A DNA stretch of 64,000 nucleotides, taken from positions 39,827,606 through 39,891,605 of the forward strand of contig NC_030387.2 in the NCBI RefSeq assembly GCF_001625215.2. Direction: 5' to 3'. Every line of letters starts with the position of its first letter. Within the stretch, counting starts at the first letter, position 1. Below, piece by piece: positions 15,525-64,000 of the stretch. The position numbers and the translations under genes were made by a program. The notes beneath the pieces were generated by a model, which was not told where the DNA came from, made no database searches, and saw nothing but the letters and a program-made list of their open reading frames with translations. Source of the stretch: Daucus carota subsp. sativus (taxonomy: Eukaryota; Streptophyta; Magnoliopsida; Apiales; Apiaceae).

Positions 15525-15564
15525 GTCGAGATGGCCGAGTTGGTCTAAGGCGCCAGATTAAGGT

Positions 15565-15597
<33 letters not shown>

Positions 15598-20580: not shown

Positions 20581-20730
20581 TTCTAGTTAAACTTTATTTT
20601 TATTTAATTTTAACATTTATTCGTTGCCAAAGGACACGCCAAGTGAGAGTTAAGTAAAATAACAAGGATGGATTTTTCGTTGGCAAATCACAGGCCAAGT
20701 TAGAGTTAAGTTTTGTTGCTATGTTTCTCC

Positions 20731-25920: not shown

Positions 25921-26989
25921 TTTTTGGCCCTCAAGCTATTTTTTTGTGCACCTTAATTCTAAATGAGAGGATTTTACAGTAAAGCAACACATCATGACTT
26001 GGGTTGGGGGAACTTGTTTTTGCAGCAGTTGCAATTATTGTGAAATATTCTTGGTTAGTATCTTGCTTTCCTATTTTCCGTAATTCACTTGTATGTTTTT
26101 TACCCCAACCGATAACACTACAAAGACATCTCAGGTCTCTGTGTTGGGTTTTATAGCATGGAATGAGATAAATGAGTTCATGGTTAATGAGTCCGGATTA
26201 ATCGGAGTCAAAGTTAATGAATCTGAATAACGATAAGCGAAATCTCAAATTCACGTGTTAGGTTTTGTGGCATGAAATGGGATTAATGAGCTCGGTTAAC
26301 AGGAGTCATAACCTTGAAATCCATGTGTTGAGGTTTCGTGGATGGAATGGGAATAACAATCTAACTTTGAGGGTAAATCATTTCTTACACTCTCTTTTCA
26401 TTTTCATTCATATTCACGATTCAAACGCTTCTAAATTTCTCCACTTCTCAACTTGTTATATTAAAAAGAAGAAGTGGTGGGAAAAGAACTTTTAAATATC
26501 TCGATATCTAAACACACTTAATCTGGATATCTATACAAGCATTTAATCCGGACATGTATTCAAACGGAGGAATCCAATTGAAACCTTGGCTAGTTGGGTG
26601 TTTTAGTTCTAGAAAATTTGTCTGTGATTTAAACAATTCGAGATGAGGCTAGAAGTGTTGCTGAGCAGGAGCAGAAATACCTTGTTTTCCTGAAGATTAA
26701 GCAGCCTTATAGAATCCAAAATCTAAAGCAAGCAAGCAATGCGAGGTTTTTAATGCGAGGTTTCTATGAACTTGATTTTCAGAAAGAGAATGAGCTTGGT
26801 TGGTTTTTAATTGGCAATAGTGTTGTGAAATAACATAATAGGGTAACCATTGAGTACTTGGCCTGTTTTTATGCTTATATCGTTGCAGAGCACATTCTCA
26901 GAAAATTAATGCACTTGAATATGTTCAGAGGAGCAACCTTGCCTGCAAATTCTATTTTGGTCATTAGAGAAAGTGTCAAAGAGGTTCGA

Positions 26990-28138: not shown

Positions 28139-28266
28139 CACGCAGCCATGTGGTGAGCACAAAGCGAACTATTCTTTCGCCTTTTACTAAAGAAATACCG
28201 TGCGCTCGCCACCCATAGTGGCATACGCCTATTTTTGAAGAGTTGTTCATTTTGGGCAACTCCTGC
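28139..28266 (+). ncRNA. U5 spliceosomal RNA
   Basis: The 5' stem GTGGTGAGCAC pairs with GTGCGCTCGCCAC. It encloses TTCTTTCGCCTTTTACTAAA, which contains the invariant U5 loop 1 GCCTTTTAC that aligns exons during splicing. The Sm-like site CTATTTTTGA follows, then the 3' hairpin GAGTTG-TTCATTTTGGG-CAACTC. A 3'-box-like CAATACGAGTCTCAAA is next. The exact start is set by the TATA (+32) and the end by the hairpin. With its promoter intact it looks functional; other copies nearby are remnants. Confidence 0.88.
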
Positions 28267-29878: not shown

Positions 29879-31030
29879 ACAAATAATGGAAAATGCTGGC
29901 AGAAACAGCTGAGGCAATACAATCACCTTCTGGCTTCTACATCATGTACTTAATTAGTTGTTACTACAGATTGTTTATAACTTTTGTGATCTACTATTTC
30001 GAAATTTTTAACTTAATAAAAAACTATATTCTGGCAAAAAAAAAAAACTATATTCTAGTTTGATCGTTTTATATACTTTATTGTTTGTGAATTTAAATTA
30101 GAAAAAGCTATCAATAAGTACGAGTGTATTTTAAACATGATTTTCTAAATAAGTCTGATAATAATAAAATTTCAGTTCAATAGATCAAAATCATATTTCT
30201 TATTCTTGTAAATTGAACTAATTAATTATTTAGAATCTATTACATTGATACGTTGGCACACCTAAATGAGGCAAAAATAAGAAATACCTTCAATGAAACA
30301 AGTTCAAATATAATTTTTTTACTCAGATTCAAGTTTGAGCTTGGAATTGAAATATATATTTACCAATAATACATTGATCATTTTATAACTATCAAAATCC
30401 AACTACCTCTAGTAAAAGAGCTCTAGCAGTGAAACATTGTGGCAGCTGCAATGCAACAGTGCCGGAGCAACTGATGAGGGAGTGTACTTCTGCATGTTAC
30501 GCCCTGTGGCAGCTGCAATGCAACATAGTGGGAGCGACTGATATCCCAGATGGGATGTCTTAGACATGCGTTTTGCAGCCGGAGATTAATCACAGAACGA
30601 AACAGACATGACAGTTCCTAAGAGCTCGGTGAGTTCCATATAATTGCATCAGAGATTAATGACAACATAAGAACAGATGTGCATGAACAATGCATATGTA
30701 TGTTTCGAACAGGCAAAACCTAAAAAAGTGGAGGGGTCTGTCAGACGACTGCAAGGCCAACCATGCCAGGACTAACTGGCCAGAAACGATCCTCTACAGT
30801 TCAGGACAGTCGCACTGGACTATCGAGAACTGCCAATCACGCTCTGACCTTGCAGTCAGGTTTCATCCACCAGATCTGGTCGCCTGCCTCCTTGGAAATC
30901 AAGGATACAGATGTATGACCTCTAGAAATGATCCTGTTCTAGTATGGTCATGGCTGAGATACCTTAACAATCAAATCAAATAGCCAATATGCTTTATGTT
31001 AGATATTAATGTGGGACATTAATATCTTAG
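29853..31030. repeat. Dispersed 1.1 kb repeat, copy R1
   Basis: Closely matches 54173-55325 along its whole length, from TACTTTTATCTGTCTTCAG to ATGTGGGACATTAATATCTT. The inner part has two nearby copies of GTGGCAGCTGCAATGCAACA. There are no terminal inverted or direct repeats I can define and no convincing ORF. Its right end abuts a 7SL fragment. Confidence 0.8.
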
Positions 31031-43172: not shown

Positions 43173-44752
43173 TTTATTATTATAAAAGTTTACATTAGCA
43201 CACTTCACAAATAGAAGCAGATGATATCCAAGGTGAATTTGATAAAAAGAAAAAAGAATTGATTGCAGTTTCTAAAATACAATCTGCACATTTACTAATG
43301 GAGCACTAACCGTCAAGAAAATATATGTATAATTAATAATTACAAAATCGATATGATATGGAGGTATAAAATATAATTTGCTTAATTATTGCACGAATAT
43401 AAAAGCAAAAAAATATAAAAACACCGACTAAGTTTTAAAAATCCTCCTCTCCTACTGTATCTCCATCCATTTATCAATTCTCTTGCTATAATCCCCTCTT
43501 CTCCACTTGTCCAACTCCATCACCATCACTCCTGTATTAAAAAACAGGCCTTTTTCCCCTCAAACACCTGCGAAAATTCAGGGACCTGCCAGAACTCATC
43601 AGTGAAGTAGCTCTTGAAATCTACATGGCAGTACTCAGGAGCTGCAATCACTCTTGACCCTGGTAGAGTCCAGGTAAATCACATGGCCAACACAAAGATC
43701 AAGCATCTCAACTATGTAAATCCTTGCATAGTTCAAAGGCTTATCAAGAGCTTCTCTGATAGAAGACGAGATGAGCCCTTTAACATGATTTCATCAAACA
43801 CATGCACCTTGAAATGCAAAGATGGGAAAGTTGACTTGAGTGTTCTTCAGGGCAAGAAGTGTGCTTCAAAACAGAGTGTATAGCAGCAATGGAGCCTCTC
43901 AAGTAATGTGAATCAAGGGTCATCTCAAGTTGTTCATGAATGCAAAGCTTGTTGCATACTTGGTTGATAGAGATTTATAATTATGTGTACTGTTATTTAA
44001 AAGTTATTTTCGAGCTAAAATCAATAAATACACGTAGCATAAGACACTCAACTATTGGAAAACCCTGATTCTTACTAAGCAAGTAAACATGGCTACCATT
44101 AATTATTGGCAATACCCCATTCTTTCCAAGCAATTAGACACTTAACCAGTGTAACAAGAGTGTAAGGCCCACCTCGTCGATGCAGAATTAAAGCCTTATA
44201 GCTCTCTGCCTCTATACAAACCATCTTGAGCTCCCATGTTTCCACTCTATACACTTTCACTCAGAACAATCACTAGATACATAATTCAGTTTGTCATAGT
44301 TCTTTGGCCACTAAAATCCTACCCTGATACAATACACTTTCCTAGACTGCAAAATCTCCTTTTTTTTAAATAAAAAATAAAAAAATCACAGTTTTGTAGT
44401 AGCAAGTCCAAACCAATTTCTGGAAATCTCCCTGTTTTTCAAATATCCAGGGAGTCTAGATATTTGGAAGATAATTTAAAGGGGAGGAGTGGGGGATTGT
44501 TAAATTTATAATACCACTGGATTTTTTCAGTACAATGATTCTGTCGAACAAAGATTGCAATGTATTGAAATCCTCTGCAATTCTTGAAAAGAAGTTTTGT
44601 GTTGGCAAAAGTTTCTATTTTTGGATCTTTCAAATTTTCAGTAGGTGCAGTCTCGGCACTTAGGAAAGGCCGGTGGAACATTCGGAAACTTGTTTATACA
44701 TTCTTCTCTTTTGTCCTTTCTTCTTCACTAGATATATAGTAGTTTTAGTCGA
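43173..44752. other. Spacer with one uncertain ORF
   Basis: A plus-strand open frame at 43614-43883 (89 codons, TWQYSGAAITLDPGRVQ... LKCKDGKVDLSVLQGKKCAS) has a coding-like look but no family I recognise and no clear splice partners. Otherwise nothing is seen except the promoter of the minus-strand Cys-rich gene. Confidence 0.4.
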
Positions 44753-44780
44753 AAAGGAAGACGGGAAGGGGATCACTCCC

Positions 44781-44916
44781 ACCCGGATTAGGTTTCACCC
44801 TACCGATGAGGAATTAGTTGGCTATTACCCGAAACTGAAACTAGAGGGACTTGAAATTAAGCTTGAAGTGATTCCAGAAGTCAATCTTTACAAGTTTGAT
44901 CCATGGGAGTTGCCAG
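44781..44916 (+). pseudogene. Orphan first exon of a NAC transcription factor
   Basis: Encodes IRFHPTDEELVGYYPKLKLE then EIKLEVIPEVNLYKFDPWEL and P, i.e. NAC subdomains A and B, ending at a GT donor (CCAG/GTAAC) where NAC intron 1 normally lies. The normal PGFRFHP start is altered to PTRIRFHP and YYL to YYP. No NAC subdomain C-E exon is visible in the next 2 kb, so this is a remnant of an ancestral NAC gene. Confidence 0.75.
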
Positions 44917-45459
44917 GTAACATTTCTAGAAATTATACTTATTTCTTCTAGGATGTAATTTGGTAGACAAATGACAATTGACACGTCTCTATGAAAACTA
45001 AAACAATCCTCGACCTCTTGTTACCTAGTGAGGAGGGTTATATACTAGGCTAGAATACAAGAGATTCTTTAAATACAAAAACTGCATGTATTCTGAAATG
45101 GCCACAATATGTACAATATAAATGTGTTTGTTTATGTGTGAGTTTGTTTAGCAATTTTCTTCCAACTCTTTTTTTTTGCATCTAAAGTACACATGGTAAT
45201 TTTTGCAGATTACAATAGTTTAAAAACATATAGTTTTAATAAGCAACCAATTATGCTGCACAAAAGTCATTTCTCCTGGACAGAAAATATCCAAACAGAT
45301 CAAGAACAAACCGAACTACAGACATAGGATACTGAAAAGTCATTTTATACTTGTTGCAAATCATACACCAACTTATTAACATTTACTAATATATACATTC
45401 ATATGTTTAATTCAACACAAGAACTAATAAACATCAGCTGCATATCATGAAAAAAATAA

Positions 45460-45706
45460 TTACTTGTTGGAAATCATCTCCGGTGCAAGCCCTCCCTTGC
45501 CACCACAAAGCCCTCCCTTGCCACCACCCTTGCCACCACAAAGCCTCTTAACCACATCTAGCTTAGATTCTACACCCAACAAACACAATTCATAAGTTGA
45601 TTAATTAATTTAAAAACACGCGAACAACATAACGTTTTCCTTCTACATAACATAACTCACTTCTACATAACATTTTGCTGCTCAACCATTTCACATGATT
45701 CTGCAT
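45460..45706 (-). CDS. Candidate 51-residue Gly/Lys/Cys-rich microprotein
   Basis: Two exons, 45706-45661 and 45569-45460, with donor GTGAGT and a 91-bp intron ending GTGTAG. The product begins MQNHVKWLSSKMLCRKSKLD. It continues VVKRLCGGKGGGKGGLCGGK and ends GGLAPEMISNK. The GGKGG motif is repeated three times with two CGGKG units. A TATA-like TATATATAC lies about 115 bp upstream on the same strand (near 45820-45828) and the presumed leader is CT-rich. I do not recognise the family; there is no clear signal peptide. A related-looking open segment with KLSGGKGSSE lies at 46940-46905, minus. This is a prediction only. Confidence 0.4.
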
Positions 45707-48168
45707 TTTCCTCAGCTCTCAACAAACTCTCTCTAGCTCTCTCTCTCAAGTGTGTGTCAGTTGAGGGAGGTAGTGTGTGTATGAGGGAAGTGGTGCATGT
45801 ATGTATGAAAGAATATATGTATATATAGGTGGAAATGCATGGAGGGTAGTTATGACCTGGAGAGATATTATATGTATAAATATAATTTGCTAGCACACAA
45901 CTAGGTAGAAATTCGAAAGGTCTAGACATCAAAGGTACAAATTCTACCACACAATGCAGAAGCCGGCTAGGAACCAGGAAGTACAGAGAAATAGCACTAG
46001 CACATAACTAGGTAGGCTTTTTAAGTCCAAACTGTCAAAGCCACATGTTTTTGTTTCTGTGAAACCTTTCACTCTTCTATACTTCATTTATCTTTCATCT
46101 ATGTGAAATCACAATGCTGCATGCATGAACGGGTAAATATTGTGGGGGTGAAAACAGAAAGTCTGGGTTTGTGCAGCTACAGAGGACCGGCTAAAGTTGA
46201 GCAAAAAAGATCAACATCGTATCTCTGAACCAGGTTGGTCTCACAAAACATCTTCCAATGACCATATATTACCCACACTCTCTCCGCTCATATTTTTTTA
46301 CATTATTTATCAGCACGTTTTTTAAGACTTATTTAATGTACTGTTCTATAATATATTTTTATTTTTATTTCTTGAATAAAAATTTGATATTTAAACTTTT
46401 ATTCAACAAATGAAAATTTTAAGAAAAAGTTATGAAATCATATTTTATAAGAGTTTTAAAATGTGTACGAACAGTGAACGTAAACAACCCTTTTGAAGGA
46501 AGTGCTATATTATGTGCATGATTTAAGAAGCAGTTTGTTATATATATGCAATATATTATTATTTTTTTTACTATTTTTAATGTATATTTTCGATGCATGC
46601 AAGCTATGTACGTGTGTGTGTAAAATAAAAGTGATACAATGAACATTTTTAATATATTTTAAATTTAATATAAATAATTAAAGATTTTGAGAACAAAACG
46701 ATTTAAGAAACAAAATATTTTTAACACTAATAAAAAATTTAAAACTTTTATAACCAATACAGTATTAGAGTAATATTTTAATCATATCTTGCAAGTCTCC
46801 ACTGGCTCTGAATGTATCATACAAGTATAAAATGTGGGTTCCTGTGTACATGTTGGTTGTGCATGGAAAGTGGAAACCTCCATTCACGTATCCACTGCAT
46901 ATAGGATTGGTATTAATCTCCGAAGAGCCTTTTCCTCCAGACAACTTTGAAATTATAGAAAATGTATCCTGCATACGAATGATAACGACGTATTATTAAC
47001 ATTTTTTACATTATGAGCATTAATTTGAAATTGTTATGTGAACAAAGAAAGATACAGTTGTACGGTGCCCTTGCAGCTTTTTTTCTTCTTCTTATTTTAG
47101 AGTTTTAAAGGGCGAATACTATCAACATGAAATATTAGAGGATCTTAATTAGCTCTGTCAGAAGAAGATTGGAACATATTTTTGTATATCAATAGCGCAA
47201 TACGCTTCGAAAGTTGTCGATTAGTTGTGATTAAAAAATCGTTGATGGAAACATGTAGATCAAAATGATTGCTTTGTGCATGTAATTACTTTGTGTATGA
47301 TAACTTTTTTACTCTTCAGGATGTTATACCTTGCGTTTGTTTTTTCTGAGTTCATTCTTGGATATATATTATTAGTGTGCTTGTTTTAGTTTATCCATTT
47401 GACTTAATATAATTATATACAAACAATCAGAAATGATAAATATTTATTGAATAATATGTACAAAATATTTGGAACACGCCTTGTGATATTTTAAATACCA
47501 AACTTAGTATACATAAAAAGCATATATGTATTGACTATATTCCTAGGTTTTATGATTATACTACGTAAACCTGTCCGTCACACAAGGCATATACGGGATT
47601 TTTCGGATAATACGCAGGAAAAAAAAAGAATAAATACACACACATATATAATGTACGCATATTTTATAATCTTATACGTATAAAGTATACACGGTCTATC
47701 ACAAAAAGAAGAATATGTAGAATAGTATGCAGGAAAAGCACATATGTATGTCCATATAACCCTGATTTTAGGATATACTCATGATTACATACCAAATATG
47801 TCTAAACACATTTTAGCACACAAGGCAGAAGGCGGCTGGGAAGTGGGAAGTACAAAGAAGTAGCACATAACTAGGCAGGCTTTTCAAGTTCAAACTGTCA
47901 AAGTCACATGTTTTTGCAAGTCCAAACCTTTCACTCTTCTATACTGGCTCATTTATCTTTCATCTATCAATTTCTTTCATACGCTTTGAAGTTTTATGAT
48001 TTTGTAAAAAGGTGCACGTATTTAAATTTTTTGTACATCTTTCCAACTAGCATATTACTAATTGTTTTTGATAATATTCACAATAAAAATAGGTTACGTG
48101 TAATTTGTGATTTTGGTATAATGTGCTCTGTGCATTCTTTAAGAAGCAGTTTGATGTATACAATATAT

Positions 48169-48426
48169 GGGACGTTTGGATGATCTTAAAATAGGTTCTT
48201 CTTACTTAAAGTAAAAAAAAATGAAATAGAAGTTGGAAATTAGTTAAAGCTTATAAATGATTAAAATATTTGGGAAAGTATTTGGGAAAAAGCAGAAGTC
48301 ATGAAACAAAATTTAGGATTCTTAACTTTTTATAAATTCTTCTCGACTTTTTACACAAACAATATGAATAAGTGCTTCTAACTTATAAGTTCAGAAGCGG
48401 AGCTTAAAAGCTCCACCCAAACGCCC
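48169..48426. mobile_element. MITE with GGGMGTTTGG ends
   Basis: 258 bp. The left end GGGACGTTTGGATG and right end CCACCCAAACGCCC are inverted repeats. Inner TAACTTATAAGTTCAGAAGC suggests further self-pairing. The target duplication is not clear, so the superfamily is left open. Confidence 0.65.
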
Positions 48427-48430
48427 ACTA

Positions 48431-48641
48431 CTCCCTCCGTCCTAGTGAGTAATATACATTCACTGTTTGCACATATAGTTTCATAACATATTAGAAAAAA
48501 ATTCTTTTTCGAATAAAAATCTAAACATCAAAATTTTATTCCGGCAAAAAAAATTTAAAAAAAAACATTATAAAACTATACTTTAAAAGAGTCTTAAAAA
48601 ACGTGTCAAATAATAACGTATACAGAACGGGACGAAGGGAG
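48431..48641. mobile_element. Stowaway-like MITE
   Basis: Starts CTCCCTCCGTCCTAGTGAG after a TA and ends GGGACGAAGGGAG. It begins 5 bp after the previous MITE. The right-hand TA has been lost. Confidence 0.65.
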
Positions 48642-49040
48642 AATATATTTATCATTCTTAATGTACATTTTCAATGCATGCAAAGGCTGCATGTACATAT
48701 AATAAGAATGCATACCTCAAAAATGTTTAATAGATTATAAAAATTAAAATTAATAATTTAAAGATTTTGAGAACAAAAGATAACATATTTGTGACACTAG
48801 TGAAAAATTTAAAGCTTTTCAGATTAAATCAAGATTAGAGTAAGCTTTTAACAGTAAGCAAGTCAACTCCCGTTGAATGGAGTATCATAAAAGTATAAAA
48901 TGTGGGTCCCGTATCCACTGCCTGGAATTTGGTTTATAGTGGCGTTCTGATTATTCTTCGTGTCTTGTTGAGTGTCTTGTATACTTGTATCAAGCAGGTT
49001 GTCCGAGGAGCCTTTTCAACCATCCACCTTTAAAGTAATA

Positions 49041-49304
49041 CTCCCTCCCTTCCTTTATTCTTTTCTCGTTTCATATATCGGTATTGTTCATAACATGAGA
49101 AAAATTACTAATTTACGTCTAATCTATAAGACTAAATAACGTCTAATCTATAAGACTAAATATAATGGTGAGTGATCTTGTTGGATTCGTATTCACAAGT
49201 TTTATATTTAATACCAATACAAAATTAATGATATTAAAGATCAAAAATGTGTGTTGGCAAACGTGCCGAAGAGAAACAGGAAAAGTAATAAGAGACGGAG
49301 GGAG
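49041..49304. mobile_element. Stowaway-like MITE
   Basis: 264 bp, CTCCCTCCCTTCC at the left and GACGGAGGGAG at the right, flanked by TA on both sides. An internal 28-bp phrase (ACGTCTAATCTATAAGACTA) is tandemly duplicated at 49114-49160. Confidence 0.8.
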
Positions 49305-49725
49305 TATAAATTATCAAGGGATGTTAATATTTGCTCAGTTAGAAAAAGATTGGAATATATTTTTTTATTAATATTTTAAAAGTCTCCAATTAATTAAAAT
49401 TTATTATTTTTTAAATTAAAATTGGTTAGAATATGTTAAAATCAAGTTAGTAAATTAAAGATATTAATTAGTCAAAAACTGGTTATAAGTCAATCAATTG
49501 TAAGTAAAAATTAAAATATATAAAAAAATAATTTAAATAATAACAAAAAGTATAGAAGATATAATATTTTAGAATAAAATACAGATCAGTGCTTTAGATG
49601 AATATAATTAAACTTTTTTATATTGTGCATCCCTTAGCTTTGGCTAATTACACTATAAATCCGCCTGACAAAAAAAGAATACACGATAAATCCGGTTGAT
49701 TAAATTTGCTTTATATCCACAACTT

Positions 49726-50012
49726 TAATGTTGTGTTTGCTTGGGGTGAATGATTCCGGAATAATTAAAATGAAAAATGAACTATTTTATGAGCAAATTT
49801 TAAGAAATTTTATTCTTTCTTTTATTTCATCCATTATCTCATGTGTTAGATATATATCACACTTTCGGCTGCTCCATTCTCTTTCATACACAATTTCTTC
49901 TCAAATCTCATTATATCATGCGCTTCCTCAATTTTTTTTCTTTCTTTCTATTTCTATTAGTTTCAAATATTTTGACTAATTTCATTCAATTCTCTCAAAT
50001 CAAACACAACGT
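49726..50012. mobile_element. MITE-like element
   Basis: The left end ATGTTGTGTTTGCTTGG and right end CAAATCAAACACAACGT are imperfect inverted repeats. The target duplication is uncertain. The interior is pyrimidine-rich with no coding function. Confidence 0.55.
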
Positions 50013-50049
50013 TAAAAGTCCCACCATAATTTCGATTGTTTAGATGCTT

Positions 50050-52007
50050 TCCTATCTTGCCTGGTTGTATTAGTCGATGCAAGATGTTTAGGATATTTCA
50101 AACTAAAAAAATTAGTTGATAAGTGTGTTATGACAGTCTATAAAAATTATATTAAAGATTCATATTATTATTTGTGGAATAAAATACATTTACGACGGTA
50201 AAAAAATGTTTATGTTAAAGTTCACAATGACCGACTCAATTTATAGATGTTGATTTGAGAAAAAATCGGGTTATCAAAAATATTTTCTATTTTTAATATA
50301 CACATTTTCCAAAAATATGGCAATTGTTTTGCAAGAAAAATAAGCCTTTTTGTTATCAAAATAATTGAAAAGGCCGAGTTTCAAATTTTGATTTGATGTC
50401 TATTAAGGTAGGTAGTTTTTATTTGTAATATAATGAAAAAGGTAGTTTTGGAACTTTTTTTCAATATATCCGAAACTAAAAAGATAATTTTTATTTTTGA
50501 TATTTTAAAATTAAATTCATAATTTGAAACTTTCTTAATATAATTTTGATATTAAAAACGGCAGGTAGATTTTTTTTGATATTTTGCAGAAGGTAGTTTT
50601 GAAATTTGCTTTCAATGTATCCGAAACTAAAAAATTAATTTATTTTTGATATTTTTCATCCAAAAATTCCAAAAAAATTAGAAAAATATAACATAGCTCT
50701 CTGAGAGGCGCCACCTAAACGCGCCCTCCCCGCTTCCCCTTTATGTAAGTATATTAATATTGACGATTGATGATTGATTATAACAAAAAAACTTTGCCTT
50801 CAAAAAAAACAAAAAAACTTTAATATGTATTTATTAAGGGTAGATTTTCTGAAATATCCTTACTTTAGATTTAATAATTATACTCAAAAGGTCTTTAGAC
50901 ATAATCGAGATTAATCGCTTTTCTCTGGGAAAATTCTATCTCGATTAAGTATTAATTAATTCAAAAATTATTTTTCTAAATCAATTAAAATAAAATTGAA
51001 CTAATAGATCAAAGATCGGATTAATTGGTCAAAAAATTGACTATAAGCCGGTCAATTATAAATAAAATATAAAAATTTTGAAAACAAAAAATTAACTTAA
51101 TAAAAACAGAAAGTACGAAAGATAAAATATTTTAAAATGGAAATTGGATCATGAATTTTAGAATAATATAATTATAGATGATATATAATTTTATATATAT
51201 TTTTTGTAAATATTTGTTATATATTATTTTTTAAAAAAAATACTATTTTGTTTGTAATATTTGCTATATATATTAAGTACTACACACACACATATATAAA
51301 TACACACACCCACATATTATTTTGTTTTTATAAAATCATAAATTTATATTAGTAGAGCAGAGTAATGTTTTAAAAGTCGTTGATTAGTCGGAATTAATAA
51401 TTTTTAAATTAAAAGTGGTTTTAATTAGTTAAAATCTAATTAATCAATCAAATATTAGATTAAGTCAAAAATTGGTTATAGTCAGTCAATTATAAAAAAG
51501 AAATAAATATTGAAAAATAAAATATAATAATTTAATAAAAACAAGAAGTATGAGAAATATAATATTTTAAATGAAAATTGGTTATAGACAGAATGAATGC
51601 ATACCTCAAACATATTTAACATATTTGTTCTTATTTTGAAGAATAATAAATTTAATTCAATAATAAAAAATCATACGATATTTATACAAATGATCGAGTC
51701 GAACAAATATAAAATGTACCAAATCACCGGTCTTCGTGCATATCTTCATGCATAAACCATCAAGCGAAAAAAAAAAAAATTATATGTACCGGCTTCATAA
51801 TCACATATTAATTGTCATGCAGAAACCATCAAGCGAAAAAAGATAAATTTATATATACCGGGTTCATAATCACAAATAAATTGTATTAGTTCAAATTTCT
51901 GATAAAGATTCTAATTTGACAAATAAATCTATTAGTACGACAAATAATCTATTTACTAATAACTACTTAACATATATTTATGAAAATTTAACAAAGGGTT
52001 AGCCCTG
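50050..52007. other. AT-rich spacer, no gene
   Basis: Strongly AT-rich. A pair of diverged phrases (GGTAGTTTTGGAACTTTTTT and GGTAGTTTTGAAATTTGC) is repeated at 50.45-50.6 kb. A second pair (CATGCAKAAACCATCAAGCG) is at 51749 and 51818. Nothing gene-like was seen. Confidence 0.55.
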
Positions 52008-53420
52008 TTTTGGCCTGATTAAGCAAGTATTTGAGACTACCTTCGTTTATTGGCAAGGCAAAGAAAAGTGCTTTTGGCTTTCAATTCTTAAGGACCGTAT
52101 GTGGAAGAAACTACAAGGATGGGGGACAAAATGCTTATCGAAGGCAGTGTTACTTCGCAATGTAGCACGGGCAGTGCCCTCGTATGCGATGTCTTGTTTT
52201 CTTCTACCCAAATCACTCTATAAAGAGTTAGAAAATATGATGAATAGTTTTTGGTGGGGATCGAAGGAGGACAGTAGGAAAGGCATAAAGTGGTTATCGT
52301 GATCAAATATGTGTATGAGCAAAAGTATGGGAGGTTTGGCTTTCTGTGATCTGCATGGATTTAATTTGGCGTTACCTGGGAAACATTGTTGGAATTTTCT
52401 GAAAAACCCAGACTCTTTGGTGGCTAGAGTGTTTAAAGCCAAGTACTATAACCATACTACAGTCTTTGAAGCTAGTAGAGGAGGAAGATCGAGTTTTGTG
52501 TGGTCTGGTTTGTGGCAAGCTAAGTAAGTATTGAAACAGGGGTACAAATGGATTCTTGGGGATGGAGAAACTATAAAAGCTTTCACAGATCCATGGGTGA
52601 GAGGTAAAAACATGTATAAGGTAAATAATATATTGACTACTGTTTCCAATGACATTAAGTAAGTGAGCTTCTTATTCCTGGTGAGTGATCATGGGATGGG
52701 ATGTTACTAGGGTAAGCAGTCTATGTTCAAGCTGCGATGCTAAAGCAATTTTAGCAATGCCTGTCCCAAAATATCTGGTTCCAGACCACTTAGCTTGGAT
52801 GAACTCGGTTGACGGTAGTTATACAGTGAAAACATGTTATAGATACTGGTATCAGCAATGTGGTGAAGGGAGACAAGCTTCAAGGCACAAAGGTTGGTGT
52901 AATCTGTGGAATTTAACAGTACCCCACAAAGTGAGGGTTTTTCTTTGGCGTTTATGTAGAAATATTATTCCAGTTCGACGTCGTCTACTAAGAAGACGGG
53001 GTGTTCAAACAACAATCTTATGTCCGATGTGTGAATATGATGTAGAACATTTGTTGCATATATTCTTAGACTGTCGATTTGCTAAAGGGGTCGGCAGAGT
53101 ATGAAAATAGAGGTTAATGCGAGTGCTTTCGAAGATTGTACTGGATGGATTTTACAATGCTTAGCTGATTACACTCCAGAGAAGTCAGCAACCATGGCAA
53201 TGGTTCTGTGGGGGATTTGGTCAGCAAGAAACCTCAAAGTTTAGGAAGGGAAAGATAGCCAAACAGATAGTACAGGGGCAAGAAGTTCACAAGCACAAAG
53301 GAACATGTATGAGCCTAAATCAGAAAGTTCAATGTCAAACTATCTCGCGTTGGAAACCTCCAGTCAAAGGACAACTCAAAATTAATGTGGACGCAGATAC
53401 TCATTTGTTAGAAAACAAGC
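52008..53420 (+). mobile_element. LINE (L1-type) 3' fragment
   Basis: Encodes, in broken frames, the C-terminal part of a plant non-LTR reverse transcriptase. Landmarks are VLLRNVARAVPSYAMSCFLL, FWWGSKEDSRKGIKW, GGLAFCDLHGFNLALPGKHC, then the zf-RVT region YRYWYQQC...WNLTVPHKVRVFLWRL and CPMCEYDVEHLLHIFLDC. It ends with the start of an RNase H-like segment KGQLKINVDADTH. Stops interrupt it (for example after GIKWLS at 52300), and both the N-terminal endonuclease/RT and the RNase H end are missing. It is flanked on the right by the R3 repeat. Confidence 0.88.
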
Positions 53421-53480
53421 CAATAGAGTTGCCTATTGTTTGCGAGAGACTTATGTGTGATGTCTGTTCAAATTACTTGG

Positions 53481-53835
53481 CATTCAAGGATGCAGATGTA
53501 TGGCCTCTAGAAATGATCCTGTTCTAGTAAGGTCATGCCTGAAATGCCTTAACAATCAAATCAAATAGCCAATATGCTTTATGTTAAATATTAATGTGGG
53601 ACATTAATATCTTAAATATCAAAATAATAAAGTAGTTATTTAGGTAAAAATAATAAGTTTTGTATTAAAATAAAAAGGTTATTAAAATGGCTTGTTGAAG
53701 GAGGAGAAAAGACTTAACTGATTGCTCATATACACATTATAACTTGTAACTTAAACAAAGATGACTGTTATCTGCAGTCTCATCAAAATGTACAAAGACC
53801 GTTCAGGTGTAGGATGATCCTATATTAGTGGTTCA
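53481..53835. repeat. Dispersed repeat, copy R3 (right end only)
   Basis: Matches the right end of R1 and R2 (GATGTATGRCCTCTAGAAAT, GTGGGACATTAATATCTT). It then matches the sequence following R2 at 55326-55590 (TGGCTTGTTGAAGGAGGAGA, GATGACTGTTATCTGCAGTC). It joins the LINE fragment at its left. Confidence 0.8.
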
Positions 53836-53837
53836 TG

Positions 53838-54130
53838 TACAGATGCCCGGTCTTTTCTGAGGTTATACACAGGCGTGCCCATTCCAAGTATGGAATTGGC
53901 TCATGGCCACTGGGCAAAGGCTCGGTGGTCCTGGTCACTAAGGTGGAAGGCACCGTGCTAGGCTGGTTTCACAGAGCAGCGATCACTTCCCTCTCTTGTC
54001 GGTGGAAGGATTACATGCTTGTTCTTGGCAAGTCTCACTTCCCTCTCTTGTCGGTGGAAGGATTACATGCTTGTTCTTGGCAAGTCCTTTTAACACCTGA
54101 TGGACCACTCAAATCAACAACCAGCTTCTT
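53838..54130 (+). pseudogene. 7SL RNA 3' portion
   Basis: Contains the S domain in well-preserved form: GTGCCCATTCCAAGTATGG, CTCATGGCCACTGGGCAAAG, GGTGGTCCTGGTCACTAAGG, GGTTTCACAGAGCAGCGATC, CTCTCTTGTCGGTGGAAGG. The Alu-domain 5' part and promoter are missing, and a 49-bp segment (ACTTCCCTCTCTTGTCGGTG...) is tandemly duplicated at 53985-54085. It is non-functional but younger looking than the copy at 31029. Confidence 0.78.
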
Positions 54131-54172
54131 ATTGGCTCAAGACTTTTCTGGTTTCATCTCTTTTTTTGCTCA

Positions 54173-55325
54173 GGCTATACTTTTATCTGTCTTCAGCTGA
54201 CAAATAATGGAAAGAAGAATGCTGTGGTGGCAATTTTTAGGGGGCACAATCACCTTCTGGCTTTACATCATGTACTTAATTAGTTGTTACTACAGGTTGT
54301 TTATAACTTTTGTGATCTACTATTTCGAAATTTTTAACTTAATAAAAACTATATTCAAGTTTGATCGTTTTATATACTTTAGTGTTTGTGAATTTTAATT
54401 AGAAAAAGCTATAATAGTTACGAGCATATCTTAAACATGATTTTCTACATAAGTCTGATAATAATTAAATTTTGGTTCCACAGATCAAAATTATATTTAT
54501 TATTCTTGTAAATTGAACTGATTAATTATTTGGAATCTATTATATGATACGTTGGCACACCTAAATGAGGCAAAAATAATATTTACCTTTAATGAAACAA
54601 GTTCAGATATAATTTTTTACTCGATTCAAGTTTGAGCTCGGAATTGAAATATATTTACCAATTTACATGATCATTCTATAAGTATCAAAATCCAACTGCC
54701 TCTAGAAAAAGAGCTCCAGCAGTGAAACATTGTGGCAGCTGCAATGCAACAGTGCCGGAGCAACTGATGAGGGAGTGCACTTCTACATGTTACGCCCTGT
54801 GGCAGCTGCAATGTAACATAGTGGGAGTGACTGATATCCCAGCTGGGATGTCTTAGACATTCGTTTTGCAGCCGGAGATTAATCACAGAACGAAACAGAC
54901 ATGACAATTTCTAGGAGCTCGGTGAGTTCCATATAATTGCGTCAGAGATTCATGACAACATAAGGACAAAAAAGGCTGAACAATGAATATGTATGTTTCA
55001 AACAGGCAAAACTTAAAAAAGTGGAGGGGTCTGTGAGACAACTGCAAGGCCAACCATGCCAGGACTAACTGGCCAGGAACGATCCTCTACAGTTCAGGAC
55101 AGTCGCACTGGACTATCGAGAACTGCCAATCACGCTCTGACCTTGCAGTCAGGTTTCATCCACCAGACCTGGTCGCCTGCCTCCTTGGAAATCAAGGATA
55201 CAGATGTATGACCTCTAGAAATGATCCTGTTCTAGTATGGTCATGGCTGAGATACCTTAACAATCAAATCAAATAGCCAATATGCTTTATGTTAAATATT
55301 AATGTGGGACATTAATATCTTAAAT
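54173..55325. repeat. Dispersed 1.1 kb repeat, copy R2
   Basis: Counterpart of R1 (29853-31030), in the same orientation, with scattered substitutions and small indels. The pair again sits next to 7SL sequence, here on its left. Confidence 0.8.
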
Positions 55326-55522
55326 ATCAAAAAAATAAAGTAGTTATTTAGGTAAAAAATAATAAATAGTTTTGTATTAAAATGAAAAGGTTATTAAAAT
55401 GGCTTGTTGAAGGAGGAGAAAAGACTTAACTGATTGCTCATATACACATTATATGATTGTTCTCCGTCTACAATATGTCAATATTTAACTTGTAACTTAA
55501 GCACAGATGACTGTTATCTGCA

Positions 55523-55875
55523 GTCTCATCAACATGTACAAAGACCGTTCAAGTGTAGGATGATCCTACATCAGTGGTTCATGTAGTTTCTTGGGAATCA
55601 CATGTTTCGCATTAATGTGAGTCATATCCTCTACAAGCACGAATATTAATGTGAGTCACACATGCCTTTATATTATTCCTAATAAAGAATTATTTTAATG
55701 TAATGATATTTATTCAAATTCTCGGTTACCAATGAATACGAAAAACACAATCTTTGTGCTTGTAGATGATATGACTCACATTAATAAGGAACATATCATT
55801 CCCGAGAAACTACATAAATCACATATGCAGGATCATCATACACCTAATCGGGTCTTTATACATGTTAATGAGCCT
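55523..55875. repeat. Inverted repeat, arms about 125 bp
   Basis: The left arm (about 55523-55646) contains GTTTCTTGGGAATCACATG and ATTAATGTGAGTCATATCCT. The right arm (about 55748-55875) contains ATATGACTCACATTAATAAG and CATATCATTCCCGAGAAACT. The spacer is about 100 bp. The left arm is also present, without partner, at 53760-53835. Confidence 0.75.
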
Positions 55876-55920
55876 GCTGATGACAATATCCCGTTGTCAA
55901 AGAAACTTTGTTGCTCCAGA

Positions 55921-56473
55921 TGTACATTGAGATTAATCAAATTAAAGAAAGAAGAATGGAAGATTTGAATCATTAAAATATTTCAAAGATGCACTAACTA
56001 AATTTGTTGAAAAGATATTAAAATCTTTTGGCGATAATATTACATGAGCATGGTGGTTTTCAAGATAATAGTCCAGAAAACTGTTGATAAGGTCTTAGGT
56101 TCTTTAAAACCACACCACATACTGAACTCACAGGTGAAGATCAACCGCTATATTAAATTGTCGCAGAATAAATTGACCAATGTTGTAATGGGAAGAAGGT
56201 TTACCATTACATCATTGGTCAATTTACTCCGTGACAATTCAATATAGCGGTTTATCTTCACCTAGGAGTTCGGTATGTGGTGCGGTTTCACAGAACCTTA
56301 GACCTTATCAACAGCTTTATGGACTATCATCTTGAAAACCACCATGCTCATGTAAACATTGTCGCTAAAAGACTCTAACATCTTTTTAACAAATTTAATT
56401 AGTGCATCTTTGAAATATTTTAATGATTCAAATCTTTCATTCTACTTTCTGTTTTCACTAATCTCAACATACA
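55921..56473 (+). ncRNA. Near-complete hairpin from a CCCH zinc-finger-like gene; candidate small-RNA precursor
   Basis: The left arm 55921-56191 and right arm 56204-56473 are reverse complements over about 270 bp with few mismatches. The loop is only 12 nt (56192-56203). Pairing examples: GAGCATGGTGGTTTTCAAGA with TCTTGAAAACCACCATGCTC (written as the right arm, its reverse complement), and GGTGAAGATCAACCGCTATA with TATAGCGGTTTATCTTCACC. Translated, the left arm gives FKDALTKFVEKILKSFGDN and, in another frame, FKIIVQKTVDKVLGS...YIKLSQNKLTNVV. This is like the C-terminal region of plant CCCH zinc-finger 38-type proteins (FK.AL..FVK...LK; IVKK.VDKV; KLTKLV). A transcript would fold into a perfect substrate for DICER-LIKE enzymes. 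Expression is not known; no snRNA-type promoter is present. Confidence 0.6.
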
Positions 56474-58547
56474 TCCACATAATATATGACGCATTATAAG
56501 CAGAATCATCAAAGAACAATTGCAAACGTTCTCACCTCAAGATTATGTCTCTACAAGACTGCCCAAATAACTGGCAGGTTGATTTCTCCCGGCGAAGTAC
56601 TCATCATTCACGACTGTGCTTCTTCAAATGATTGATGAAAATCTAGATTGCAGAGTGGACATTTAAGTCACTTAAGCAGTCCAATTCATCTTGTTGTTTT
56701 ATATGTTAAAACTATAAGGAAGAGACAACTAAATTTCACAATACGTTAAAACATAAATGTCAAGTTAAAGATTGATTACTAACTAGTCGGCCCTTATAAA
56801 AAGGGAAGGATATAAAAACATGCCTTGGGTATTATCAGTAAATAGGTTGACATTTGCAGCAAACTCTCATCAATCCATTTGACTGGAGACATGTCGTGGT
56901 GCTCAGGCATTGATTGTATGCAATCTTTGCAATCGTGCGCACAAATCCTTCTAATCATTGCTATTTCTGTGTAAACCAAAAAAATTGAGATCAGTATAGT
57001 ATTTGCAACAACGAATTATATATAGTGATGGATGCCAAAAAATGAATACTTGAAACATGAAACTAGAGCAGTATTAAGAAAGTGACAACAGCGGAAACCT
57101 TCAATTATCAAAGTAATGAAAGCACATTTCTATATTGTTTCCTATACAGTCAACAAAAACCTAAAAACATGCTGAGAAAATGATCAGACAAAAACTGAAA
57201 GGCAATTGCAAAATCCCAAGTCAAGCAACAAAATTCCATATATGACAAACAATGAAGTAAAGTGAACTTTAGCATTCCTAGTTAAATATTGTGTAATGAC
57301 AAACATAAATATGTATATAACAATACATATAGCTACAAGGGCTACGTGTCATCCATGAATTAAGATCTTAGTCTTAAAACCTTATTTTCGAGGCTACTAC
57401 AACTTTAAAATAGTTACGACTCTAGCAAACCAAGCATCTTACCAAAATTTAATTTACATTGAACTAGTGGCCGAACAATCTAGGAAAAATCTGATTTTTT
57501 TTATACCTACAAATCCGATCTTTAACACCCTCGCATTGTATTTATATTAACAATTAATTTTCAGGTCTTATATTCACCACCACTGTCAGTTCATTAAACA
57601 TGAAAAATCAAAGAAATCAACACAACTTTAAATAGGACAAGAGATATCGAAAGAAATATTAAAAAACAAAAGAATATTGAGTCTGAATGCTTTGAAAACT
57701 GTTAGATGCTACCCAATTTTAAGAGATGGACCGTGCATCTATATAAAGTGTACCAATGAAAAATTAAACTCTACCGCTATATCAACAATGAAACTTTTGG
57801 ACTTGGAATTATACAAGAGGGTACAAATCAGATGAGATGAAACATTTAAGAAATCTTAAGCAATTGAAGCTAGATCGAAAAAAATTAAAAAGCATAGCCA
57901 TGATTGATTATACTCCCGGAAATCAAACATACAATTTGTAACCTCATTTAAATAATGAAACATATAAATCAACTCAGCAAAATTCAACTAATCATATAAC
58001 TAATACATGGCCTTATCAAATATTCACAAATCTGTTAGACATCAAGGAACAACTGTGAATTGTGGAGAAAGATTTGAACCAGACCTGGTTTATGAACTGG
58101 AGAGATGCAATGAATCTGGAGAGACTTGGGGTCTGGTCTGATACAGTACAATACAGGGAATGTGGTGCAGGATATATAGCAGAAGTTTTTGATGTTTCTG
58201 TTGTGCTTTACCCCTCTTTTATGGTACTTGAAAATTGTAGTGGGCCCACTCAAGTAAAATGATTGGATATTTAGGATTTGTATTTTATTGAGATTTTTCA
58301 AGATTTTTTTCATTTGTGAAATCCGAGTGTATTCATTTCTCAGGATCTTGGGGTATTTTTTGAAAATTTTGAATTATGTTACAAAATATGGTGATATTCA
58401 ATTAGGATTCTAAATTATGTTTAAAAGTCCGAGAGTATTCAATTGAAATTATTTAAAACCCAAATATATTCAAATGCTGATGAATTTTTTGGACTTCATA
58501 AAGTGATGAATTCTTACATCAATTATGCGACATCCAGGGGGTGTATT

Positions 58548-59055
58548 TAACTGCAATTTTAATAGTTTTTATATAACATGTATATTTTAATGGTATTTAG
58601 GGGGTATATTCAAATGAGATTTTGACGGACTTTTTATGGTTTGTAAATTTTAATGGATTGTGTTTGATTATGAATTTATGTGGATCCTAAATAATATATC
58701 GTAAAGTTGATGTAGCGTCTTTATTAGGATTTAAGCACAGTACTTCAAAATTTTATGGATTTTAGTGAAATTTCAAATATTATTAAATATACCAAACAAT
58801 CTGATAAAATGTATCATTTTGTGAAATTCAAAAAAAAGACATCAACATTGGAATACTATCAGATTTTAATGAATTTTATATAATCGCAATTGAATACCAT
58901 CAAATTTTAAGTATAATTTAAAATCCTGATTGAGCGTATAATTTAAAGTCCTAATTGAATACACATATATTTTTAAAATCCGAGTTGAATACCCTCAAAT
59001 TTCACAAATGAAAAAAAAAAGATTCTTTAAAATCCCAATTCGATATATCCCTTAA
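58548..59055. mobile_element. MITE-like inverted element
   Basis: The left end GGGGGTGTATTTAACTGCAA and right end AAAATCCCAATTCGATATAT + CCCTT form an inverted pair of the GGGTGTATTCAATTGGGATT type often seen in plants. Inner shorter inverse words (TGAATACCCTCAAATTTCAC) suggest nesting. Further relatives lie at 58262-58545. Confidence 0.5.
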
Positions 59056-59822
59056 TCTGGGAACCACATAAAATTAAAATCAGATGCAATTCAATTGGAT
59101 CCAAATTATATATAATTTATTAAAATCACAGTTGAATACATTCATCTTAATACCGATTTTTAGGACCGTTTTTCAGAAAAATGAAGAAGAATAATTTGTT
59201 GGTATAATTTACTTCACAACAAGTCCGGTTTGTGATTATTTTACGGACAACCGGACAATTGCAAAATTAATTTCAGCTCTCGACCACTTGTTACATAAAT
59301 GAATAATATTACTTTGTCCGTCCTTTTTAGTTGTCATATTTGGTTATGTGCCAGTCAAATTGACCAAAGTTTGACTGAAATTAATCAACATTTTATCAAT
59401 TGATAAAATAGAAAAAATATCATCAAAAATAATTTTTTATCTATTTTAAGATTTAATTTTCAGTTTTTTAAAATAATGAAAGAATAGCTTAATAAAAAAA
59501 TAGAGGATCAACATACCCAACAGGGAACCTATTGCTTGATACAGCAAACTAACCATGCATGTATTTTTTTTCCTTGTACAAGTTACAGACTTACAGACAC
59601 AGTAGCACTCGAACACTAGGGGTTCAGTAAATTTGAAAAAACCAACCACAGAATCCTCATTGAATTACACAAATACAATTCCAAAAGGATAACTAATTAA
59701 AGAAACACTATCCAAAATAAGTTACCTCTTTTCTTACTGAAAATTACAACTCGGCTTGACTGCAGTTAACTCGCTCAGTAGTCAGTATTAAACTGCCGCA
59801 GTAGGTATTACTTGTTAGCAGG

Positions 59823-60545
59823 TTAATCTAACAAATACGCGAAATCATTTTCAATTGTAGCGTAAAATGCATTGAGTTTCTCCTCGGCAAGTGATTCCTG
59901 GCTCTTATCCCCATCAAGATCACGAGAATCTGAATCCGGAACCTCCATAGTCTTGAGCCCATCCTTTTTTGGATCCTCTACGGCTGCAGCATCGTGTCCA
60001 CCGTGATCCATGACAGCAGCATCCGGTTCATGTAGCTGGCTTGGAACCACATTCCTAGCTTTCTTCGTTGAAACGTTCCGTTCTACATCTGATGCCCTCT
60101 TCTTTCTCTTTTTCTTGCTACTTCCAGATGAGCTTGCCTGTGTCACAGCCAAGGCATTCTGTTGTAAATCTCTCGATCTTCTCCTGAGATCATAATCATT
60201 TCTTGTATTTTTTTCAGACAAGATGGCCCATGCTCTAGTCACGAGCCTATATGCTTCACGCGACCTAGTTAGTCTTATACTCTTAGCCACTTCCACGTAA
60301 AGTTTCTTTATTGTCTTGAGATCAGCTGAAGGATCGGCACCAAGAACTGAGTACCAGTCGGTTTCCTCATCCTCGCTGGAAACCTGCACAATGATTTGGG
60401 ACAGAAAACGCGAAAGTCTTCTGAGCTTTCTAGATGAAGTTTGCACCTTCTTGGCAAACTCTATAGCACCTTTGACATCATTTTTGTGCAAAAGGTTTTC
60501 CAACGTTTGTATGCCACTGGTATGGTACGACGTTTTGAAGTCCAT
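59823..60545 (-). CDS. J-domain-like nuclear protein lacking HPD
   Basis: Single coding exon, 240 residues, start ATG at 60545. Residues 1-50 (LENLLHKNDVKGAIEFAKKV...) resemble the N-terminal helices of plant DnaJ proteins of the MECNKDEA...AKK type. Residues 62-121, DWYSVLGADPSADLKTIKKL ... YRLVTRAWAILSEKNTRNDY + DLRRR, follow a J-domain. The loop that should carry HPD reads AKSIRLTRSREAY, so it should not stimulate Hsp70 ATPase in the usual way. KKKRKKR (144-150) and KKAR (161-164) form a likely bipartite nuclear signal, followed by an acidic tail. A splice acceptor (TTATTCAG) just upstream at about 60570 suggests an intron in the 5' UTR. Confidence 0.82.
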   Translation of the reverse strand: MDFKTSYHTSGIQTLENLLHKNDVKGAIEFAKKVQTSSRKLRRLSRFLSQIIVQVSSEDEETDWYSVLGADPSADLKTIKKLYVEVAKSIRLTRSREAYRLVTRAWAILSEKNTRNDYDLRRRSRDLQQNALAVTQASSSGSSKKKRKKRASDVERNVSTKKARNVVPSQLHEPDAAVMDHGGHDAAAVEDPKKDGLKTMEVPDSDSRDLDGDKSQESLAEEKLNAFYATIENDFAYLLD

Positions 60546-61330
60546 TCTAATGAGATTCAGCTCTACACCCTGAATAAGTGAATTTCAAATGTTATTCTTG
60601 CTTGAGCAGAAACATTTCTTGTAACCTATGCAGTCCTTGATGTGAACTAAAAGAATTAGGGCAAGAATAAGTGAATGAACAACAACAGTACACTATGGCA
60701 GTATGAAATATGGAAGATTTTTTTTTACTGTTAATCAAAATCAAGAAACAACACTGCCAGAAAAATTGTTAATTTTGACAGAACATTTTCAGACAGATTC
60801 TATTTCTTCTGGTTTAGACTACTGTATTTCATTGCTAGGAGGGTCCTTAACCTATGCGAAATCTTGAAATAATCATCAACAATTTGTTGGTAAAATCTTC
60901 TACACAACATGTCCCGTTTGTGATTATTCACACACAAACATACAATACCTGAAATTTGAATACTCACATGTTCACATACTCTATTGGTACAACGTTAAAT
61001 AAATAAGCAACGGAGGATGGATATTCATAACCCTGCCAAAACCCTGAACAGAAACCTACTGAGTGATAACAAACTAACCAGGCATGGAATTTATTGTATA
61101 TATTTGTAGAAGTTACAATAGCACTCAGATTTGCTACAACTAATTATACTGATGGATGCCAGAAAAGGAATTCTTTAAACATGTATTAGCGCGCTAATAA
61201 GAGAATGAACAACAGCAGAAATAAATTATCACAGTAATAAAAGAACAAATCTACACATAAGGGATATGTTTCCAATATAGTCCACAGAAACTCAAAATAA
61301 GTATGAGAAAATAATCCAACGAACACTAAA

Positions 61331-61436
61331 AGGCACTTGTAAGATCTCAAGTCAAGCTGCACCTTTACATATACAACAATAGCAAGGCACTTGTAAAATC
61401 CCAAGTCAAGCTGCACACTTACATATACAACAATAG
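61331..61436. repeat. 53-bp tandem duplication
   Basis: Two adjacent copies of AAGGCACTTGTAARATC then TCAAGTCAAGCTGCAC and ACATATACAACAATAG. It lies in the upstream duplicated segment of the J-like gene. A separate 29-bp pair (TGCATGTATTATATTGAGCA) is at 62353-62400. Confidence 0.85.
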
Positions 61437-62464
61437 TGTGAATTAGAATTAAATCGAGACAACTACAACTTTATAATAGTTATCAAAGAACAACTTACAC
61501 CCCAGATGACCAAAGTTTAACTTGGATATACTGAGGGAAATTTTAAACAAAAAATCTGACTTTTTATGCTTACAAAACAATCTTAAACACATCCCTTGCA
61601 TTGTTTTATCTCTACAAATCATTTTCATGTCTTCTCAGTTTCACCACCACTACCAGTTCATTACATCTTAAAGATCAAATTAATCGACACAACTGAAAAT
61701 AAAACAAGAACTAATGAAAGTCTTCTTAACAAAAAAGACAAAAAAAACAAATTGAGCTACTACTTCATAACTAAAAGAATGTTTTCTATTCATAAAAACA
61801 TGTAAAACGTTGATCTGAAAACAGAATACAGAAAACAACACCTAAATCATCCGAAAATCAATCGATGCTAATGAATCTACAGAAGGAGATGGACTACTGC
61901 ACATCTAAACTGATGTACACCAAAAAATTTAATACTTGAATTACACAAAAAGCACAAATTAGTTAGATGAGTGTATACATTTATAAGAATTTTCAACAAT
62001 TGAGGCTTGATTGAAAAAGTTAATAAGCACAGCTATGATCAATTACAATTGCCGGAAATAAACATACCGTATACAATCGAATTTCAACTGATCAGAATTG
62101 AAAGACTGATGCACCTTGATACAGAGGGGAAGGAATACCGCGCATCTAAACTGATGTACACCAACAATTGAACTTTATCTGCATATGGAATTTTTTTTAG
62201 AATTTAATATTCGAACTAAATTTTTTTAGAATTTGTGAAAGATCGAGAGTAATAAGAATGGTCTTGACGAGGGGTGCAATGGGATATATACCAGAGAGGT
62301 GCATAACGGGACAATTTAGTTGTGCTGTACTTTTGAGAATACACACTGAGCTGCATGTATTATATTGAGCAACTGAGATGCATGTATTATATTGAGCAAA
62401 AGCCTCAGGCAAATCTAGACAAAAAGTGACCCCACAACACATTTTTGTTGGTTGGAAATATTAG

Positions 62465-63707
62465 AGGGCCCACCGGAAAAATGAGGAACAATATTGAATA
62501 TGGATATCTTCAAGAATCCGTATTTAAAAACATTAGAGGGCCCACTAAAAAAATATTGAAAATATTTATCGGGGATTTTTTACATTGTAGGAGCGGGGTT
62601 GGCTAAATTGGATATATTATGTAAAATTTGTCGAACCCGTAAGATATTGTGCTTTGATAATATTGGTTATATTGATCGATTATAATTTAAAAATATTATG
62701 TTATTAATATTTTAGATTGTTAAAATAGAATATATCAGTACAATATTATAATAAATATTGTGCAATCTTCCTACAAATTTTTTACAGCTAAAATTATAGA
62801 TAAAGGGTGAGGATGATTGAAGGATGATATTTTCAAGACATTGGTTATATTTCTTATTTTTGGTATGCGAACTCAGTTTTTAGATAAAGATTTTTATATT
62901 TGGAGATGCTTTAACATTTATCATTTGATTCGCCAAGTAACATGAGATTGGAATGAGAAATTAGATTAAAATTATATGAGTTTAAAGTATCATATCTAAT
63001 ATCATGTTTTTGGTTAAATGATTAATCAATATATATTCAATTTTAAAAAAAATTAAGTCATTAATATATATTATAAATTAAAAATTATTAGTATTATATA
63101 TTTTGCATCTTAATTATTCTTGTATCAAAAATTAATATTTTTTGACAAAATACATTCATTAAAACACTGACACATAGTCAGGACAAATCCCCGAACTGAT
63201 TATACAATCAGATTGAAAAATAAAAATGAGCTAAATAACTAGTCATTTTATTTTCAGATTGCTTAAGAAATAGAATATAAATAAAATGATTGTTTTTTTC
63301 GTATTTTTGTTTGATGATAATCACCATTTACTATTTCTGTTTGATTTCTTTGATTTTTTTCGGTGTTTAAAAATCTTTCTAATTATTACAAGTTTTGTGA
63401 CCTAGTTTTCACAGCACATGTAATGTAATGTATCATGTTGTCTCCTAAGAAAAATTTAATGAACATGAAATGTATCTTAAATAAATTTTCTAATCTAGCA
63501 TAAATTGTATATATTTGTGATTTTAACCTATTAAAAACACAATTAGAAATGATTGTGCAAATCAAAACATTACGATCTAATTTTATTAATAATACGAGAA
63601 AAGTTATTTGAGATGTATCTTAATGTGTGTGTATTCTTATTAATGTATTTAAGAGGCCAGAACTTATGACTTTACGTGACTTATCTGATAAGCTGGTAGT
63701 TTAAAAT
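62465..63707. other. AT-rich spacer, no gene
   Basis: No ORF, RNA gene or clear repeat ends seen. Confidence 0.5.
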
Positions 63708-63986
63708 GTCTGTTTCGGTAATTTTTACTTATTAATAGCTTATGGGTTATTAAAAATATAATAATAAATATAAAAGTGTTTTATGAGTAATTTATGACTT
63801 ATGGGTAATTTTTATCAAAAAATAAGTTCAAAAAAATTAAATCACTAAAAAAATACCTCAAACTAATTTCTAACTTTAAGTCAGCTACTAGCTTATTTAT
63901 GGCTTTAAGCTGGCTTCTGACTTATTACACAAATAGACATTTTTCAGCTTAAATTATGAAACAGCTTAAAGCTACCACAAACAGGC
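63708..63986. mobile_element. hAT-like MITE near the window end
   Basis: The left end GTCTGTTTCGGTAA and right end TACCACAAACAGGC are inverted. The interior carries repeated AGCTTATTTATGGCTTTAAG-type words common in plant hAT-derived MITEs. The target duplication is only approximate. Confidence 0.6.
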
Positions 63987-64000
63987 TCTAAATGTCTAAG

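Follow-up and report, generated by a model that had tools for sequence, protein, structure and literature searches.

Hairpins apparently derived from a decayed CCCH-family exon beside a U3 gene in carrot

RNA genes and hairpins in the window

The window analysed here is the whole stretch C7:39827606-39891605 (64,000 nucleotides) of Daucus carota subsp. sativus. Between 15525 and 55244 it holds a mixed cluster of small-RNA genes (U1, U5, SRP, U3, and tRNA) matched at the Rfam cut-off: a tRNA at 15525-15605, two U1 genes at 20416-20576 and 24489-24649, an SRP RNA at 25637-25923 with a partial SRP at 53850-54034, a U5 at 28144-28261, and two minus-strand U3 genes at 30735-30951 and 55028-55244, the latter matching Plant_U3 with 150.5 bits (cut-off 80). 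The U3 and SRP models that match are the plant versions in Rfam. USE-like boxes with at most 2 mismatches number 26 in the window versus 12.7 expected, and none of 100 shuffles gave as many. Both U1 genes, both U3 genes, the U5, and the full SRP each have such a box starting 66-79 bp ahead of them. USE and TATA-like stretches at 20730, 24818, and 27616 (plus strand) precede degenerate U1-like sequences (16.9, 38.8, and 30.8 bits; cut-off 69.5), and a perfect USE box at 22709 (plus strand) precedes a sequence that resembles, by eye, the 3' side of the U5 gene. These U1-like and U5-like sequences behind the extra boxes may be decayed or divergent variants. Open frames with a DnaJ domain (59826-60584, minus) and a NAC/NAM domain (44664-44948, plus) are also present, as is a zf-RVT-domain frame near the hairpins (52685-53101), which is probably a fragment of a non-LTR retroelement.

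The U3 gene at 55028-55244 is the direct neighbour of the hairpins. It lies 190 bp left of their first wing and is read away from them, with the hairpins on its promoter side and its USE-like box at 55300-55310 on the minus strand; no hint was seen that this promoter reads the hairpin. A further U3 gene at C7:32.867 Mb (L054, 1802-2020) shares this left flank and parts of the right one, and no hairpin was found within the 3.5 kb examined at that locus.

A minus-strand BLAST of the stretch on itself aligned 55919-56475 with its own reverse complement (86.4% over 560 columns), the chance of such a palindrome being judged by the BLAST E-value (0.0). Three arm pairs, 56040-56194/56201-56355 (155 nt, 89% complementary), 55946-56041/56355-56450 (96 nt, 90%), and 55919-55941/56453-56475 (23 nt, 83%), join into this single inverted repeat. 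The corresponding RNA is predicted to fold with -335.1 kcal/mol, a 12-nt apical loop, 240 pairs taking in 87% of the bases, and a longest unbroken Watson-Crick run of 38, and the stem is predicted to be strongly paired whichever strand is read (-335 and -365 kcal/mol). The repeat is thus of the long kind that can fold as one RNA. The self-alignment and the predicted fold confirm the hairpin and 12-nt loop of the original prediction, which had been made from the letters of the window, but its description of the arms as almost perfect was too strong, since the multiple alignment gives 88% identity (33 differences in 275 aligned bases), about one base in eight. The second inverted repeat that it placed at 55523-55875 is real and comes from the adjacent part of the same exon, but it is weaker than the large one, with 83% over its best 103 nt and 73% over the whole (384 columns).

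Exon origin of the arms

A genome-wide DNA search was run with the large hairpin on the 441-Mb, 11-contig assembly and returned at least 14 matches: two to the hairpin itself, two to a recent copy, four to a third locus on C7, four on C3 (two places, at 15.952 and 16.605 Mb, which hold the relatives C3a and C3b), and two on C6. The C3 relatives are 77-80% similar to the arms and the C6 gene 70-72%, far above random sequence, and this supports the proposed origin of the arms in the C-terminal coding region of a CCCH gene. The C6 relative is the end of an open frame of 1125 aa with a C-x7-C-x5-C-x3-H motif, which we take to be the CCCH zinc-finger pattern. The CCCH label also rests on this visible motif because both Pfam matches of the frame, PF16131 (21.1 bits, cut-off 29) and PF22628 zf-CCCH_10 (18.3 bits, cut-off 27), fall below cut-off. 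Downstream of the C6 frame, an AG is followed by a short readable frame, GYVDKYVKV-stop, consistent with a last exon and with an intron that begins GTAAAC, both splice sites being putative. In C3a, the 1.6 kb that follow showed no GYVDKYVK frame when read in three frames.

C3a and C3b retain the C-terminal exon and a proline-rich exon; the latter, in C3a only, weakly matches the N-terminal frame of C6 (25% over 339 aa). In about 23 kb searched around each, the finger frame of C6 matched C3a and C3b at its end only, and two open frames of C3a gave no match in Pfam. The matched stretch is open in C3a and carries two stops in C3b. Differences between the two fall on codon positions 1, 2, and 3 in the numbers 13, 10, and 11; the codons with a single change comprise 6 synonymous and 18 non-synonymous ones, and 5 codons hold more changes. 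This pattern suggests that at least one of the two is not constrained as a protein. The nearest relatives of the arms therefore appear to be two fragments that have neither the finger part nor coding constraint and that look non-coding.

Within the window the exon can be followed in the order A'-A-B-B'-D', a sense block (A-B) with an antisense wing on either side. A and B are adjoining parts of one exon, and D lies upstream of the open frame of that exon. The A' wing (55434-55640, minus), which repeats the opening part of the exon in antisense and forms the left arm of the smaller inverted repeat, is 75% identical to C3b (55440-55640) and 77% to C3a (55483-55640). Its sense counterpart and right arm, A (55729-55885, plus), is 78% identical to C3a and 80% to C3b, with 24 nt exact to both. 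B (55901-56195, plus), the sense exon end and left arm of the large hairpin, is 80% identical to C3a (55935-56194) and 77% to C3b (55901-56191), with 22 nt exact to C3a, and the antisense right arm B' (56191-56475, minus) is 88% identical to the left arm and 78% to C3a (56191-56456). D' (56472-56828, minus) carries the right arm onward, the A' part missing between, as an antisense copy of the sequence upstream of the open frame (74% to C3b over 56472-56747, 72% to C3a over 56639-56828). The left flank and the edge of A' have a truncated second copy in direct repeat at 53688-53839 (minus, 78% to 55400-55585); 53476-53741 and 53736-53839 match 55184-55453 and 55483-55585.

The apex of B' holds 14 nt from past the exon end, GTAAACCTTCTTCC of C3a. 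Since the right arm keeps these 14 nt and runs on into sequence upstream of the exon, the copied material was genomic DNA and not a spliced mRNA. By the same alignments the large hairpin took its arms from the final long exon of a gene of the CCCH family, and the smaller repeat comes from the preceding part of that exon. Stops interrupt all three frames of B and B', as they do in all four B copies of this locus and its recent duplicate and in the two arms at the third locus; block A of the window, in sense orientation, is stop-free in the frame of the gene. The longest open frame on the sense side is 89 aa (55699-55968), with none of 90 aa or more; another listing gives 182 aa, and the 89-aa value is used here.

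Copies, age, and constraint

The recent copy of the hairpin (C7:39899832-39900385, 98%) is found 16.3 kb further downstream, within a tandem segmental duplication that pairs 52.4-64.6 kb with 68.8-83.5 kb of the window and its downstream sequence joined. At a larger scale, 45025-64000 of the window is in tandem duplication with the stretch just downstream (66.8-83.5 kb joined) at an offset of about 16-22 kb, and both copies of the duplication carry a U3 gene and the hairpins. A third, older palindrome 33 kb downstream, around C7:39916412-39917112 (713 columns at 84%), has the order A-B(part)-B'(part)-A'-D' and a centre that differs from that of the first locus. Over the roughly 110 B columns shared by the first and third loci, all 9 informative columns unite the two arms of one locus and none unites like arms of different loci, which fits two independent foldbacks, or one foldback with later conversion between the arms. 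Inverted pairs of at least 100 nt (at least 75%, less than 1 kb apart) numbered 7 in 192,798 bases, a sample that is not random, and 3 of them are these loci.

Jukes-Cantor distances over B are 0.131 from arm to arm, 0.018-0.024 between the recent copies, 0.265-0.266 from the arms to C3a, 0.081 from C3a to C3b, and 0.164 between the arms of the third locus. The locus had been called a young MIRNA candidate, and this age was not borne out: the arms differ by 12% from each other and by 22% from their nearest relatives. In a young proto-MIRNA the arms would be near-identical to each other and to a functional parent, which was not found here, C3a showing no coding constraint when compared with C3b. 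Plant sequences change at a rate near 6.5e-9 per site per year; taken at this rate, the divergence of the arms would correspond very roughly to ten million years and the segmental duplication to one to two million.

Changes since the segmental duplication amount to 15 of 1034 sites in the hairpins (3/459 in the A part, 12/575 in the B part), 18/1343 in the left flank, 7/355 in D', and 23/688 in the right flank. The hairpins do not differ from all flanks pooled (48/2386, Fisher p 0.33) and are like the left flank (p 0.86); they are slower than the right side with D' (30/1043, p 0.034, uncorrected and one of two tests). The power of these comparisons is low at about 2% divergence. Taken together the three tests point to no clear constraint on the hairpins, and weak constraint remains compatible with them; the sense A block shows 0 changes over 186 aligned bases. 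Among codon positions 1, 2, and 3, the 34 changes common to both arms fall 13/9/12, those of the left arm 3/6/2, and those of the right arm 3/3/7, so that neither shared nor arm-specific changes have a consistent third-position excess. The four B arms vary at 39 columns: at 28 of them the left and right arms differ in the same way in either copy, and 11 are later changes. We read 8 of these 11 as weakening the pairing of one copy, 1 as a mismatch that the two copies share, and 2 as keeping or restoring the pairing. The last two are column 145, where both arms of one copy underwent the same change, and column 256, shifted towards its partner; either could be a pairing-keeping change or an arm-to-arm conversion.

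Two further signals were considered and set aside. A conserved miRNA-like core was rejected, as the longest difference-free run between the arms (38) was reached in 1697 of 10000 shuffles, and C-to-T decay as a trace of methylation was uninformative (CpG observed/expected 0.57 in both the large hairpin and the right flank, 0.42 in the left flank, and 0.63 across the window).

Foldback of genomic DNA and possible small RNAs

We favour, with a probability of about 0.78, a decayed fragment of a CCCH-family gene that folded back as genomic DNA, was rearranged, was tandemly duplicated together with its flanks, and evolves much like its surroundings. The starting point would have been a decayed copy covering the 3' part of the gene, in minus orientation on C7, with a foldback (inverted) duplication of genomic DNA at the exon end; the right A' part would then have been lost and an A' wing gained on the left, before the tandem duplication of the locus with its flanks. 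This order of events is inferred. With no clear mark of selection for silencing RNAs in its sequence, the hairpin seems to be mostly a commonplace result of local DNA duplication. If it were transcribed, long hairpin RNA and siRNA output is possible on the predicted fold: read-through would give long double-stranded RNA, Dicer-like cutting would yield siRNAs, and these would chiefly affect the three C7 loci in cis, with the C3 fragments as further possible targets.

An active long-hairpin siRNA locus, a proto-MIRNA that arose through inverted duplication and silences relatives of the C3a type in trans, is unlikely by comparison. The predicted stem of either strand, the three loci of this kind, and the slower change relative to the right side would suit it, and so would two exact stretches, one of 22 nt that the left arm shares with C3a and one of 24 nt that block A shares with C3a and C3b. 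With at most 2 mismatches, these 22-nt and 24-nt stretches occur only at the C3a, C3b, and C7 loci (6 and 7 places), and for this reason any siRNAs made here would be likely to target the C7 loci themselves and the C3 fragments. Other relatives lie on C1, C2, C3:44.95 Mb, and C4; the window-by-window comparison took in C3a, C3b, and C6. Counted in 21-nt windows, exact matches to the C3a exon number 2 in the left B arm and 0 in the right, and matches with one mismatch 19 and 5; the sense block A has 4 windows identical to C3a and 4 to C3b. The closest 21-nt match to the C6 exon end has 3 mismatches for left B, 2 for right B, and 6 for each A arm (G-U counted as mismatch). Against an siRNA locus, the hairpins change no more slowly than the left or the pooled flanks, the nearest relatives look non-coding, and no 21-mer comes closer than 2 mismatches to the homologous exon of the intact C6 gene. 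The last two points also weaken the suggestion that the hairpin silences its parental CCCH gene, the nearest relatives being without the CCCH part. No known MIRNA family matched the hairpin at cut-off, the best being MIR6135 (57.4 bits versus 99). We regard as improbable the fuller scenario of a three-locus hairpin cluster beside U3 genes, made of foldbacks of one decaying exon with two centres, possibly formed twice, whose siRNAs silence the C3 relatives.

A foldback transposon or MITE with captured gene sequence is very improbable: the palindromic form would suit it, and another palindrome at 122136-122367 of the joined stretch has a relative near C3b, which would be expected of a MITE, but among the matches listed no dispersed copies were found, the arms matching only the C7 cluster and the exon on C3 and C6, and both arms are exon sequence. 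Misassembly can affect inverted repeats and tandem copies, but a misjoin would give near-identical arms, and arms 12% apart, two copies about 2% apart, and a third locus with another centre make an artefact the least probable explanation.

The inverted-duplication model of MIRNA birth reportedly goes back to Allen et al. in 2004. In the description of this model in PMC3237417, the features in common with the carrot locus are an inverted copy of a gene fragment, a long stem, and related genes in the genome; unlike it, the carrot hairpin is old, its nearest relatives are decayed fragments, and it has no clear constraint. The fit to the model originally proposed thus holds for the inverted gene fragment with related genes and fails for a young, almost perfect duplication. 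Rice pseudogene-derived siRNAs were observed as small-RNA reads (PMC2708354) and share with our case a pseudogene with possible antisense RNA, in cis or on paralogues; siRNAs of the carrot locus are putative. The Arabidopsis siRNA02 inverted-duplication loci are likewise endogenous and differ in being two loci about 2.1 kb apart with 24-nt siRNAs detected (PMC350667). No title on this locus was among the matches listed for literature on inverted duplications with small RNAs and on snRNA clusters.

The locus is ordinary in kind and mildly interesting for its three-locus history. Hairpin anatomy alone should not be read as a small-RNA gene. If siRNAs are made, the locus would exemplify a hairpin born of a gene copy that had decayed beforehand, and its recent duplicate and older relative would allow comparison; at present it mainly shows that inverted gene fragments of such length can survive with no clear mark of selection.
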